From assembly GCF_008801925.2 (NCBI RefSeq), contig NZ_CP062803.1:3596001-3660000 (forward strand): a stretch of DNA of 64,000 bases. The letters run 5' to 3'. Source of the stretch: Cupriavidus basilensis (GTDB lineage Bacteria > Pseudomonadota > Gammaproteobacteria > Burkholderiales > Burkholderiaceae). The translations under genes were made by a program, and so were the position numbers. Shown here piece after piece: positions 41,252 to 43,871 of this stretch (position 1 is its first letter; each line of letters opens with the position of its first letter). The notes beneath the pieces are model-generated. The model saw only the letters and a program-made list of their open reading frames with translations, was not told where the DNA came from and did not search any database.

Positions 41252-41437
41252 TCGTCCTGGCGCTGCCAGCCCTGGGCGGCACAGCACCGGCGGCGCCGAA
41301 GCGGACTTTTGATGGCCGGCGGTTGGGATCTTGAACACCCGTGTCCTAGACTTGAAGACCGCATTGCCACCCCCCGGCTGCGCATTGGCCGGCGGATAGC
41401 AAAGCGGCATTCAAGGCTCTCACCGACAGGGTGCACT

Positions 41438-41818
41438 ATGGAATTCCTGAACTCCGGCAAAGTCCTCCCCGCAGGGCTGCCATTCTCCGAGGCGGTGCGC
41501 GTTGGCGATATGCTCTACCTCTCCGGGCAGATGGGCATCGTCCACGGCAGCACGCGCCTGGTGCCCGGCGGCATCCGCGAAGAAGCCAAGCAGGCGCTGA
41601 TGAACATCCGCATCACGCTGGAAGCACACGGCCTGTCGCTCAAGCACGTCGCCAAATGCACCATCTTTCTGGCCGACATCAGCGAGTGGCAGGTGTTCAA
41701 CGAGGTCTACAAGGAGTTCTTCCAGGCGCCCTATCCGGCACGCAGTGCGCTTGGGGCGAATGGCTTGGCGCTCGGGGCCAGGGTGGAGGTGGAGTGTATT
41801 GCGGTGTTTAGTGGCTGA
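41438..41818 (+). CDS. RidA family protein
   Basis: A 126-residue RidA/YjgF/UK114 protein, a trimeric enamine/imine deaminase family that removes reactive intermediates of PLP enzymes. Motifs: LPFSEAVRVGDMLYLSGQMG, KQALMNIRITLEAHG, the AKCTIFLADISEW strand and C-terminal GARVEVECIAV. The usual active-site Arg in PARSALGANGLA is present. AGGGTG precedes the ATG at 41438. Confidence 0.93.
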   Translation: MEFLNSGKVLPAGLPFSEAVRVGDMLYLSGQMGIVHGSTRLVPGGIREEAKQALMNIRITLEAHGLSLKHVAKCTIFLADISEWQVFNEVYKEFFQAPYPARSALGANGLALGARVEVECIAVFSG

Positions 41819-41907
41819 GTTGAGTTGCTGGGTGGCTGATACAGCGGCTACGAGCGGCCACTCCCCCGCTTGCGGGAGGGTGGCACAACTCGCCCTGCCG
41901 CGCTGGC

Positions 41908-42156
41908 CTAGAGCATGCCTTGCACGCGGTTCAAAGCCTCATCCAGCTGCTGCTTCAACGGGGTTAGGAGGCAGTGCAGACCGTGGCTGTCCTCCACATC
42001 GTCGCTATCAAAATCCAGCAGCCTGAGAACAGCACCAAGCCCTGCACTGACGCGCAGCAGGTCGGCGCAGCTATCTTGCGCGATGCTTTGCGCACGGCTA
42101 CGAAGGTCCTCGAGTTGGTAGGCTAGTTCCTGGACGCTGAGACGAGACTTGCTCGC
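41908..42156 (-). pseudogene. 3' part of a small helical protein cut at the palindromic element
   Basis: On the minus strand a frame of about 83 codons encodes a plausible helical protein (LSVQELAYQLEDLRSRAQSI, LGAVLRLLDFDSDD, LLTPLKQQLDEALNRVQGML, stop). It has no usable start codon: the frame runs without ATG, GTG or TTG into the palindromic element that begins at 42157. It therefore looks like a gene whose 5' end was removed or displaced by the element. Family not recognised. Confidence 0.5.
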
Positions 42157-42323
42157 TTGTAGCCCCGCTGACGCGGGGGGTGTCTCTTGGGGGCGGGGTT
42201 TTACTGCTTCTAGCTGCTGGCGCGGCTTTGCGGTGTTGGCCGTTTACACACGTGTGAGATGTCACTTTTCTTTACTCGTAAAGAAAAGTAACCAAGAGAA
42301 AGCGATCCTTGCAGGAGGCTGGC
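42157..42323 (+). repeat. Left arm of the palindromic element
   Basis: 167-bp arm with two internal hairpins. A frame inside it (SPADAGGVSWGRGFTASSC...) also occurs in the other arm and reflects the repeat rather than a gene. Confidence 0.85.
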
Positions 42324-42791
42324 TTGTCGGGGTTGCGTAGCCCGGTAGTTTCGTCGTCAGGCCCCGGGTTTTAATAGCCTCATGCCGTTACCGGTTTGCA
42401 TGGCCACGATCCTGCGGATGGCGCTGGTTTCGTGGTGAGGCTGCTCGGTAGCGGCATCCTTGCTCATTCGCACATCTACCGGTACCGGCTCCGAGCACCG
42501 CGATATATCACGCCGTGATGGTTTCGTGGTGAGGTGGGCGCGGTGGAAGAATTCTTCGACCAATCAAGTCGGTGCCACCGCGCCCACGACGAAAACGGGA
42601 CGCTTGCAACTTCGTGGCCGGTCACCCCGCGAGCGACAGACGGCTTGACATTCGTGGTGGTGGCTACCGGTGGGGGCCACCACGAAACCCTGGGCACTAG
42701 CAAGGTCGTGGTGGTCTAAACTGGTAACGGCACGAGTCCATCAGCACCCGGGGCCGTACGACGAAACCATTGGGGTCCCCAATGACGCCAC

Positions 42792-42958
42792 GCCAGCCTC
42801 CTGCAAGGATCGCTTTCTCTTGGTTACTTCTCTTTACGAGTAAAGAGAAGTGACATCTCACACGTTCTAAATCGGCCAACACCGCACAGCCGCGACAGCA
42901 GCTAGAAGCAGTAAAACCCCGCCCCCAAGAGACACCCCCCGCGTCAGCGGGGCTACAA
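42792..42958 (-). repeat. Right arm of the palindromic element
   Basis: Inverted copy of 42157-42323, about 95 percent identical by eye, with a compensatory base-pair change in the internal hairpin. Confidence 0.85.
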
Positions 42959-43049
42959 ACCTCGCACGTCAGCAGCTTACTCAACACGCCCCCAAACCCG
43001 CATGCCACCCGCCAAGGGCAACACCAAGAATTACCGCACTCTCCTTGCC

Positions 43050-43871
43050 CTACCCCCGAACAAACTCAAGCAAATCCTGATTGATCAATTCAGGATGGGT
43101 AGTACACATGCCATGCGGCAACCCCTTATAAACCTTCAGCGTGCCCTGCTTCACCAGCTCCGCCGACAACAACGCCGAATCCGCAATCGGCACGATCTGG
43201 TCATCGTCCCCATGCAGGATCAGCACCGGCACATCGATCTTCTTGAGGTCTTCCGTAAAGTCCGTTTCCGAGAACGCCTTGATGCAATCGTAGTGCGCCT
43301 TGATCCCGCCCATCATGCCCTGGCGCCACCAGTTCGCCATGATGCCTTCAGATGGCTTGACCCCCTCGCGGTTGTAGCCGTAGAACGGAAATGGCACGTC
43401 CTTGTAGAACTGTGCCCGGTTGGCAGCCAGCTGCCTGCGAAAGCCGTCGAACACCTCCATCGGCAGGCCGCCCGGGTTGGTGGCGCTCTTGACCATGATC
43501 GGCGGCACCGCGCCGATCAGCACCGCCTTGGCTACGCGGCCGGCGCCGTGCTGCGCGACGTAGCGTGCCACCTCGCCGCCGCCGGTGGAGTGGCCGATGT
43601 GCACGGCGTTTTTCAGGTTCAGATGGGCGGCCAGCGCGGCGACATCCGCGGCGTAGGTGTCCATCTCGTTGCCGGTGTCGGTCTGCGTGGAGCGCCCGTG
43701 GCCGCGGCGGTCGTGTGCGATCACCCGGAAGCCCTTGGAGAGGAAGAAGAGCATCTGCGCGTCCCAGTCGTCCGCGCTGAGCGGCCAGCCGTGATGGAAC
43801 ACGATGGGCTGGCCCGTGCCCCAGTCCTTGTAGAAGATGTGCGTGCCGTCCTTGGTCGTGATCTCACTCAT
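43050..43871 (-). CDS. Alpha/beta hydrolase, cofactor-free haloperoxidase/arylesterase type
   Basis: A 273-residue cytoplasmic hydrolase. [15 protein letters not shown] supplies the oxyanion region, DRRGHGRS follows, the nucleophile elbow GHSTGG has Ser 95, the acid is in HGDDDQIVP and His in GLPHGM. These motifs are typical of non-haem chloroperoxidase-like esterases, which act as esterases and show perhydrolase activity. It is followed on the mRNA by nothing obvious; the dienelactone hydrolase gene lies 39 bp upstream on the same strand, so they form an operon. Confidence 0.93.

Follow-up and report, generated by a model that had tools for sequence, protein, structure and literature searches.

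The locus studied here raises the question of what a near-palindrome of 802 bp is, lying between two genes that both read towards it, and of what maintains its arms. The element is located in the window, by which we mean the whole stretch of 64,000 nucleotides of Cupriavidus basilensis DNA that was analysed. A preliminary description had reported inverted arms of 167 bp, about 95 percent identical, an interior that stays partly palindromic, the motif TTTCGT(C/G)GT three times forward on the left and three times inverted on the right, and in each arm a hairpin differing from its partner by a paired T-A to C-G change. All these features were confirmed, the six motifs at each of their positions (Table 1). 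The outer 167 bp of the two arms are identical at 158 positions (94.6%) with no gaps. The ungapped match extends to 246 identical positions over the outer 296 bp, with 210 nt between the arms, and the interior beyond these arms is still partly palindromic. Variants of CTTGTAGCCCCGCTGACGCGGGG at the terminus are the common end of the subfamily to which the window element belongs, hereafter subfamily A.

As also stated in that description, no transposase gene was seen in the window element. The single ORF of at least 80 aa that overlaps it (42697-43008, - strand, 103 aa) crosses the right end and is taken as spurious. Folded as RNA, the element reaches -580.9 kcal/mol as compared to -311.3 ± 7.3 kcal/mol for 20 dinucleotide shuffles. 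Five matches to the intrinsic-terminator consensus were found in 41600-43300, four of them inside the element, versus 1.4 ± 1.0 in shuffled sequence; their T tails are weak. At gathering score, Rfam matches in the whole window were two tRNAs only, with no family on the element. In 42100-43000, nothing came near a cut-off, the three matches at E <= 1 being microRNA families far below theirs. The window also holds the remnant of a DUF1484 gene at about 41910-42141, the whole gene being present in another genome, G023 (L086).

Table 1. Features of the window element and of its neighbours, in window positions, and full copies of the IS481-family element in the same genome (C1 and C2 positions).
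Feature	Positions	Strand	Remarks
Whole near-palindromic element	42157..42958	.	802 bp; subfamily A copy
Left terminal GC hairpin	42163..42178	+	CCCCGC-TGAC-GCGGGG, TTGTAG before it; terminator-like by consensus scan
Right terminal GC hairpin	42937..42952	-	inverted copy of the left one
Left arm hairpin	42261-42292
Right arm hairpin	42823-42854
Left module, pyrimidine tract Y	42266..42273	+	TTTTCTTT
Left module, purine tract R	42280..42287	+	AAAGAAAA; pairs with Y
Left module, second purine tract R'	42294..42301	+	AAGAGAAA; 6 nt past R, mirror match 7/8
Right module, Y	42842..42849	-	TTCTCTTT, read on the - strand
Right module, R	42828..42835	-	AAAGAGAA, read on the - strand
Right module, R'	42814..42821	-	AAGAGAAA, read on the - strand, mirror match 8/8
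Interior, forward TTTCGT(C/G)GT	42349..42530	+	three, at 42349, 42428, 42522
Interior, inverted TTTCGT(C/G)GT	42586..42766	-	three, at 42586, 42679, 42758
Left neighbour gene	41309..41818	+	Ribonuc_L-PSP (PF01042) protein; reads towards the element
Right neighbour gene	43050..43871	-	alpha/beta hydrolase; reads towards the element
IS481-family full copies	C1:188538, 407987, 738989, 1020259, 3165066
IS481-family full copies	C2:1013206, 1015055, 1031851, 1213579, 2784873

A dispersed family of palindromes at gene 3' ends

The genome from which the window comes (G000, the source genome) was searched with the left arm, which gave 35 matches, and with a second copy, which gave 101, in each case among the best 40 candidates scored. 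Merging these matches led to about 34 places, all on the two largest contigs, the window copy (L056) being one of them. The arms are not unique to this locus, and membership of a dispersed repeat, as had been proposed, is supported. An inverted self-match of at least 184 bp is present in 24 of the 34 places; the remaining 10 include several fragments and several copies that insertion sequences have interrupted. Uninterrupted palindromes in Cupriavidus measure about 0.7-1.05 kb. The two main subfamilies, A and B, have the arm hairpin and TTTCGTGGT motifs in common and differ in their outer sequence. A third subfamily was found in G021 (L053, L055), and a fourth (L197, 628 bp, 82%) was met in a control piece of the source genome.

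In the same orientation, 11 A copies are 83-94% identical. When the window element is compared in the opposite sense with itself or with other long copies, identity is 72-75%. The two arms are therefore old, distinct halves and the dispersed unit is the whole palindrome. The view that the arms themselves are the copies of a dispersed repeat had to be amended accordingly: the dispersed family exists, but in Cupriavidus its unit is mostly the whole giant palindrome, solo arm units occurring in other genomes.

The genes around the elements were located by a simple codon-based gene finder, for which 18 control pieces of the source genome served as training set. The count excludes L128, which could not be classified, and L121 and L122, the two smallest of the fragments. 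The 31 loci classified, of 32, consist of 18 convergent, 13 tandem and 0 divergent gene pairs. In contrast, control gene pairs with a gap, taken from the 18 control pieces and the window, comprise 49 convergent, 202 tandem and 44 divergent cases (n = 295). The convergent excess at element loci corresponds to a binomial p = 2e-7. Moreover, all 31 loci have a stop codon facing the element at a distance of at most 128 bp, and in 28 of them this distance is at most 64 bp. In other genomes, 19 of 35 module loci could be classified, as 9 convergent, 9 tandem and 1 divergent; this count used the codon table of the source genome, has no control set, and includes one place of G355 twice (L176, L227). 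Overall, the elements are located at the 3' ends of genes.

As concerns their position on the chromosome map, no element was found in C1 of the source genome across 1.87 Mb (1.30-3.16 Mb), a gap as large being obtained in 33 of 20000 random placements. The GC skew of the control pieces flips sign inside this stretch, which therefore probably surrounds the terminus.

Covariation of the Y-R-R' module

Arm hairpins from all sources share one layout: a GC hairpin (in most units), AC-Y, a loop, R-GT, about 6 nt, and R'. R complements Y, and R' repeats R in mirror image. In the window, it is the purine tract located 6 nt beyond the arm hairpin that mirrors the 3' side of this hairpin.

The stem was first considered with a pattern in which the inner CTTT/AAAG was fixed and four Y and four R positions were free. 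An 8-bp stem, in four stem sequences, is complete in 162 of 168 strand readings (64 loci, each hairpin being read twice). With a looser pattern having five free positions per side, stems are complementary except in G751, among the matches listed. Homologues do carry the hairpin covariation, and the earlier suggestion that the hairpin is maintained is borne out by compensatory changes across copies, genera and families.

The relation of the third tract to the stem was scored on units chosen for a purine tract after the stem. This filter was passed by 46 of 108 distinct hairpins, about half being expected to drop as a result of reading both strands. The mirror rule relating R' to R is perfect in 37 of 55 distinct units, with a mean of 7.58 of 8, and is below 7 of 8 in five of the 55. 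With partners swapped between classes, 1.2% are perfect. None of 2000 label shuffles matched the observed fit, a count that is no probability because the units share ancestry. A direct repeat of R was also considered for R' and rejected, since it is perfect in 7 of 55 units as compared to 37 for the mirror. The direct form fits swapped partners in 37.6% of cases because R of one common class is the mirror tract of the other. Two tract classes of the seven, CTTTCTTT (5 units) and CTTCTCTT (2 units), are nevertheless fitted as well or better by a direct repeat.

Over ten Y tracts, the mirror is perfect in 32 of 43 distinct rows, 29 of them with R' exactly 6 nt past R. Six of these tracts discriminate between the two forms (TTTTCTTT, TTTCTTTT, TCTTCTTT, TTCTCTTT, TTTTCTT and TTTCTT), and there the mirror accounts for 26 of 35 rows versus 1 of 35 for a direct copy; the other four (CTTTCTTT, TTCTCTT, TTTCTTT and TTTTTT) do not discriminate. 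Perfect mirror rows come from families f1, f5, f8, f15, f49, f186 and f219. Near the palindrome ends, modules face inward as pairs in L194, L193, L183, L234 and L235, which come from other families, and in L197. In L251 and L182 (G355), module pairs stand in direct order, not inverted. The natural variants, in which three tracts covary, constitute an evolutionary test of the importance of the third strand and a ready compensatory set for experiments.

Could these regularities arise with no selection at all, the palindromes and hairpins being kept by copying between arms (gene conversion or template switching at quasi-palindromes) and the covariation being mutational? In 11 disjoint copy pairs, 278 one-sided and 65 two-sided changes between arms were counted, the latter exceeding the 16.6 expected by chance, as copying would predict. 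Watson-Crick pairs are swapped in 40 of the 65, 24 of these 40 coming from one copy pair. Within an arm, linked sites seem to change together, block by block, and copies inside one genome are roughly as similar as orthologues, both of which also agree with copying. Since differences are mostly one-sided, the long palindrome is without tight constraint. The arms exchange sequence or are weakly constrained. However, copying yields inverted or direct repeats, not mirror repeats, and so leaves unexplained why R' follows R; in addition, solo units that have no partner arm obey the mirror rule. Orthologous loci point in part the same way: the window copy and its G040 orthologue are 90% identical as compared to 71-83% at fourfold sites of two neighbouring genes, whereas at another orthologous element locus the element is not slower (0.88 versus 0.85-0.92). 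We consider it improbable that copying without selection explains the element.

Constraint at the RNA level would be another possibility, transcripts from either flank giving a rod-like hairpin for 3'-end processing (by RNase III) or a structured RNA. The very stable fold and the location at gene 3' ends are in line with this view, and so is the slightly better fold of subfamily A on one strand in 11 of 11 copies; these 11 copies are nevertheless related by descent and not independent. In subfamily B, neither strand is consistently favoured: 7 of 14 copies fold better one way and 6 the other, with one tie. An excess of G-U pairs (110 versus 24 in A, 62 versus 32 in B) was discarded as a sign of RNA-level selection because it is biased, RNAalifold having chosen the pairs. 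In an unbiased count on DNA, G-U and A-C arm mismatches are nearly even (385 versus 309), arguing that there is no clear selection at the RNA level. Together with the Rfam result, this makes an RNA element quite unlikely.

Filled and empty loci, distribution and resident insertion sequences

Presence and absence of the element were compared between relatives. The joined flanks of four B loci were used to locate the same gene pairs. The spacers, of 915, 880, 1070 and 1058 bp in the source genome, are of 2389, 774, 283 and 5611 bp in G040, of 110, 24, 74 and 60 bp in G023, and of 35, 205, 462 and 61 bp, with other sequence, in G046. Draft genomes gave 238 bp (first locus) and 193 bp (fourth locus) in G063, 188 bp with NN (second locus) and 92 bp (third locus) in G072, and 389 bp (first locus) and 119 bp (third locus) in G021, their other spacers being at contig ends or unresolved. 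Assembly could have produced the small spacers of G063 and G072 (420 and 260 contigs; NN in L149), and more weight was therefore given to G023, G040 and G046 wherever this could be done. Two of the G023 spacers retain what looks by eye like a scar of the outermost layer, and the 283-bp spacer of G040 holds one module of another type. In G046, inspection by eye of the 205-bp spacer (L152) showed a palindromic insert of another kind, with TAGTGTCCTGTTCCG close to one end of the spacer and its inverse close to the other.

A loci were compared as well. At the L120 site, the source genome and G063 have the element. G040, G072 and G023 lack it and show there, by eye, a short GC-rich hairpin resembling those of ordinary terminators. 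G040 is also empty at the L113 site, and the element that it carries at the L089 site is missing from G063, G023 and G072. At the L130 site, filled in G072, G023 retains just a 36-bp hairpin built from both element ends. At the window locus, G040 has the element in reversed orientation. A clean empty site for the window copy was sought in G023 and not retained, the match to the left flank running up to 15 bases before the element and not beyond. Overall, the filled, empty and reversed syntenic loci indicate that copies have been gained or lost, and inverted. In one copy of G040 (L145, 1959-2603), the right arm is in tandem repeat with a period of about 390 bp.

These loci are the sole support for the earlier idea of a non-autonomous mobile unit, and they suggest that the element may be mobile; neither a target duplication nor a mobiliser nor any recent jump was recognised. 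The syntenic loci revealed neither a clean duplication nor a rule of joining, and no target-site duplication was made out by eye at the four A-type loci compared, where the flanks have changed as well. Long inverted arms, empty sites in relatives and the tandem arm amplification in G040 would also fit a MITE or a foldback derivative of an insertion sequence. This origin appears very unlikely to us, as the copies have no transposase ORF in common, no target-site duplication was recognised at those four loci, and insertion sequences break arm hairpins that are intact elsewhere. No autonomous relative with the same ends was noticed in passing among the loci examined.

Insertion sequences are residents of the palindromes, and their being the origin of the element was ruled out since the hairpins they interrupt are intact in other copies. 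In the source genome, all ten full copies found of a 1.29-kb IS481-family element (best 40 of 60 candidates scored) are at palindrome places (Table 1), in or beside the arm hairpin where the break was read. This element is apparently target-specific. An IS3-family element (167 + 343 aa) breaks the arm hairpin of the subfamily A copies L113 and L119, and also of L132. In the 5.6-kb syntenic spacer of G040 (L148), a copy of the palindrome carries an IS5-family transposase and the reverse transcriptase of a group II intron; an additional ORF there is by eye an IS3-type transposase as in the subfamily A copies.

Sequence resembling subfamily A was found in at least 7 of 60 genomes sampled in the genus (G000, G021, G023, G040, G063, G065 and G072). 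Palindromes with the same module are present in another family of the order, in G352 (L193, 554 bp; L192) and G108 (L194, 672 bp), with interiors that have no long similarity to A or B. Outside the order, G705 has a palindrome of 481 bp (L215, 66%) that carries the hairpin close to each end. Modules also occur singly, with no long palindrome around them, in G355, in G113 and on Burkholderia replicons. A search of the order for one exact form of the hairpin found it in 9 of 399 genomes, and a search of the class for one form of the module found it in 3 of 274. In the family to which G355 belongs, 13 of 43 genomes carry the hairpin in a looser form. The distribution is patchy. A pattern scan of genome contigs gave one matching record, Cupriavidus basilensis OR16 contig110. 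No match was found for the window element in the plasmid collection or for a subfamily B copy in phages, and two module patterns gave 2 and 0 stretches in viral contigs. Two loci have inverted module arms on either side of other sequence. In G343 (L190, 1178-1459 and 4190-4471), the arms, 97.5% identical over 282 bp, flank about 2.7 kb with ORFs, one for a PAAR-motif protein; in G754 (L239), they are 84% identical over 208 bp and flank about 4 kb.

Taken as a whole, the element is in our view best explained as a member of a family of giant 3'-end palindromes built from PIT-type modules, a reading that we hold with moderate confidence. The giant non-coding near-palindrome would consist of two inward-facing hairpin modules, Y - loop - R - about 6 nt - R'. 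The inverted repeat Y/R shares its purine tract with the mirror repeat R/R', which makes a potential intrastrand triplex layout. In single-stranded or negatively supercoiled DNA, the module hairpin could form with R' lying along R in a purine-type triplex, and the other strand of the module might adopt a pyrimidine-type triplex. The arms may pair as a long cruciform or, in RNA transcribed from either flank, as a long hairpin. The folded element would stop or protect the 3' ends of flanking transcripts, and if so it could replace the short hairpin found there in some relatives. It would spread and be lost as a selfish repeat tolerated at 3' ends. More tentatively, Y-R-R' might be selected for a three-stranded structure, its tracts covarying in mirror register across seven families of the class, mostly with a turn of 6 nt; the giant palindromes would be its paired form, a separate class capturing bidirectional 3' ends and replacing terminators. 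The persistence of near-palindromes of up to about 1 kb at gene 3' ends would bear on how transcription units end, on the tolerance of palindromes and on the landing sites of insertion sequences.

Comparison with known repeat systems

Literature on palindromes and repeats, on the letters of the module, on palindromes as insertion sequence targets and on Cupriavidus repeats or RAYTs contained no description of the element in the titles and abstract openings of the matches listed, mainly from open journals. The systems to which it can be compared are REP-type repeats and triplex-type motifs.

Within the REP type, the element could be a giant REPIN, in which the two GTAG-tagged units of a REP dimer enclose a long palindromic spacer and a RAYT/IS200-like Y1 transposase mobilises the whole by cutting hairpin ends that carry GTAG. 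Indeed, at most ends of subfamily A the sequence (C)TT(G/C)TAG precedes a GC hairpin, on the left and the right side alike, and a RAYT-like Y1 protein is present in the source genome (L028, C1:4076407-4076715), beside a gene that we take to be dgt. However, inspection by eye of subfamily B and of further palindromes revealed no end combining GTAG and a hairpin. Cupriavidus genomes match PF01797 in 59 of 60 cases whether or not they have the element, so that this match does not track it. The chromosomal Y1 protein is under the NCBIfam REP cut-off (44.7 versus 80 bits), and the three Y1 loci of the source genome showed no repeat match, among the matches listed. As described in the available text of PMC3733652 and PMC1525189, REPs lie mainly between convergent or same-direction genes and attract insertion sequences, which the element does as well. 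In contrast to the REP/BIME/REPIN type of PMC3733652, it is several times longer than a REP dimer, palindromic throughout and without a linked RAYT, and its subfamily B ends differ. Units of 20-40 bp and dimer spacers mostly of 20-100 bp define the REPIN size, as compared to 802 bp here. We regard a giant REPIN as unlikely. With regard to REP-targeting insertion sequences (IS1397, ISKpn1 and others; PMC1525189), the likeness is that every full copy found of one insertion sequence is in the repeat. Here it belongs to the IS481 family, whereas the available text of PMC1525189 gives IS3, IS110, IS4, IS256 and IS5.

The triplex-type motifs are closer. PMC4666352, which catalogues potential triplex motifs of bacterial genomes, describes TM-ECO (BoxC, PIT) as a G/C-rich Y-R-R' motif in 262 proteobacterial genomes. 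According to the same available text, its triplex forms in vitro, no stable triplex being seen in vivo, and most potential triplexes in scrambled genomes are A/T-rich. TM-ECO clusters origin-proximally in the replichore halves of E. coli K-12; in E. coli MG1655 it forms five inverted pairs, every one of them a mix of two types. No promoter or terminator activity is cited there for the G/C-rich motif, and the main text leaves Cupriavidus, Ralstonia, Burkholderia and Xanthomonas unmentioned.

The exact TM-ECO consensus CCCTCNCCC..GGGNGAGGG..GGGNGAGGG is absent from the window. In the loci examined, the exact pattern gave 8 matches at 4 places: one in G037, two in the palindrome of G108 and one in the source genome (L205). 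In the palindrome of G108 (L194, 627-1298), an A/T-rich module pair lies outside and an inverted G/C-rich TM-ECO (BoxC) pair inside, as nested triplex-type pairs.

The modules of the element have the PIT-type layout, with Y, loop, R, short linker and R' on one strand and R' in mirror register. As TM-ECO is depicted in PMC4666352, both are intergenic, patchy among close relatives and sometimes found as inverted pairs of two types. They differ in that tracts of the element are A/T-rich, although the genomes are GC-rich, and mostly AAAGAAAA or AAAAGAAA, whereas those of TM-ECO are GGGNGAGGG, and in that the second linker is mostly 6 nt in the element and 3 nt in TM-ECO. The modules are mostly preceded by a GC hairpin and paired into palindromes of about 0.5-1 kb. 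Finally, the element lies strongly at gene 3' ends whereas TM-ECO is commoner upstream of ORFs. On the best reading of these comparisons, the element is most closely filed as a new, A/T-rich variant of PIT-type repeats in giant paired form.
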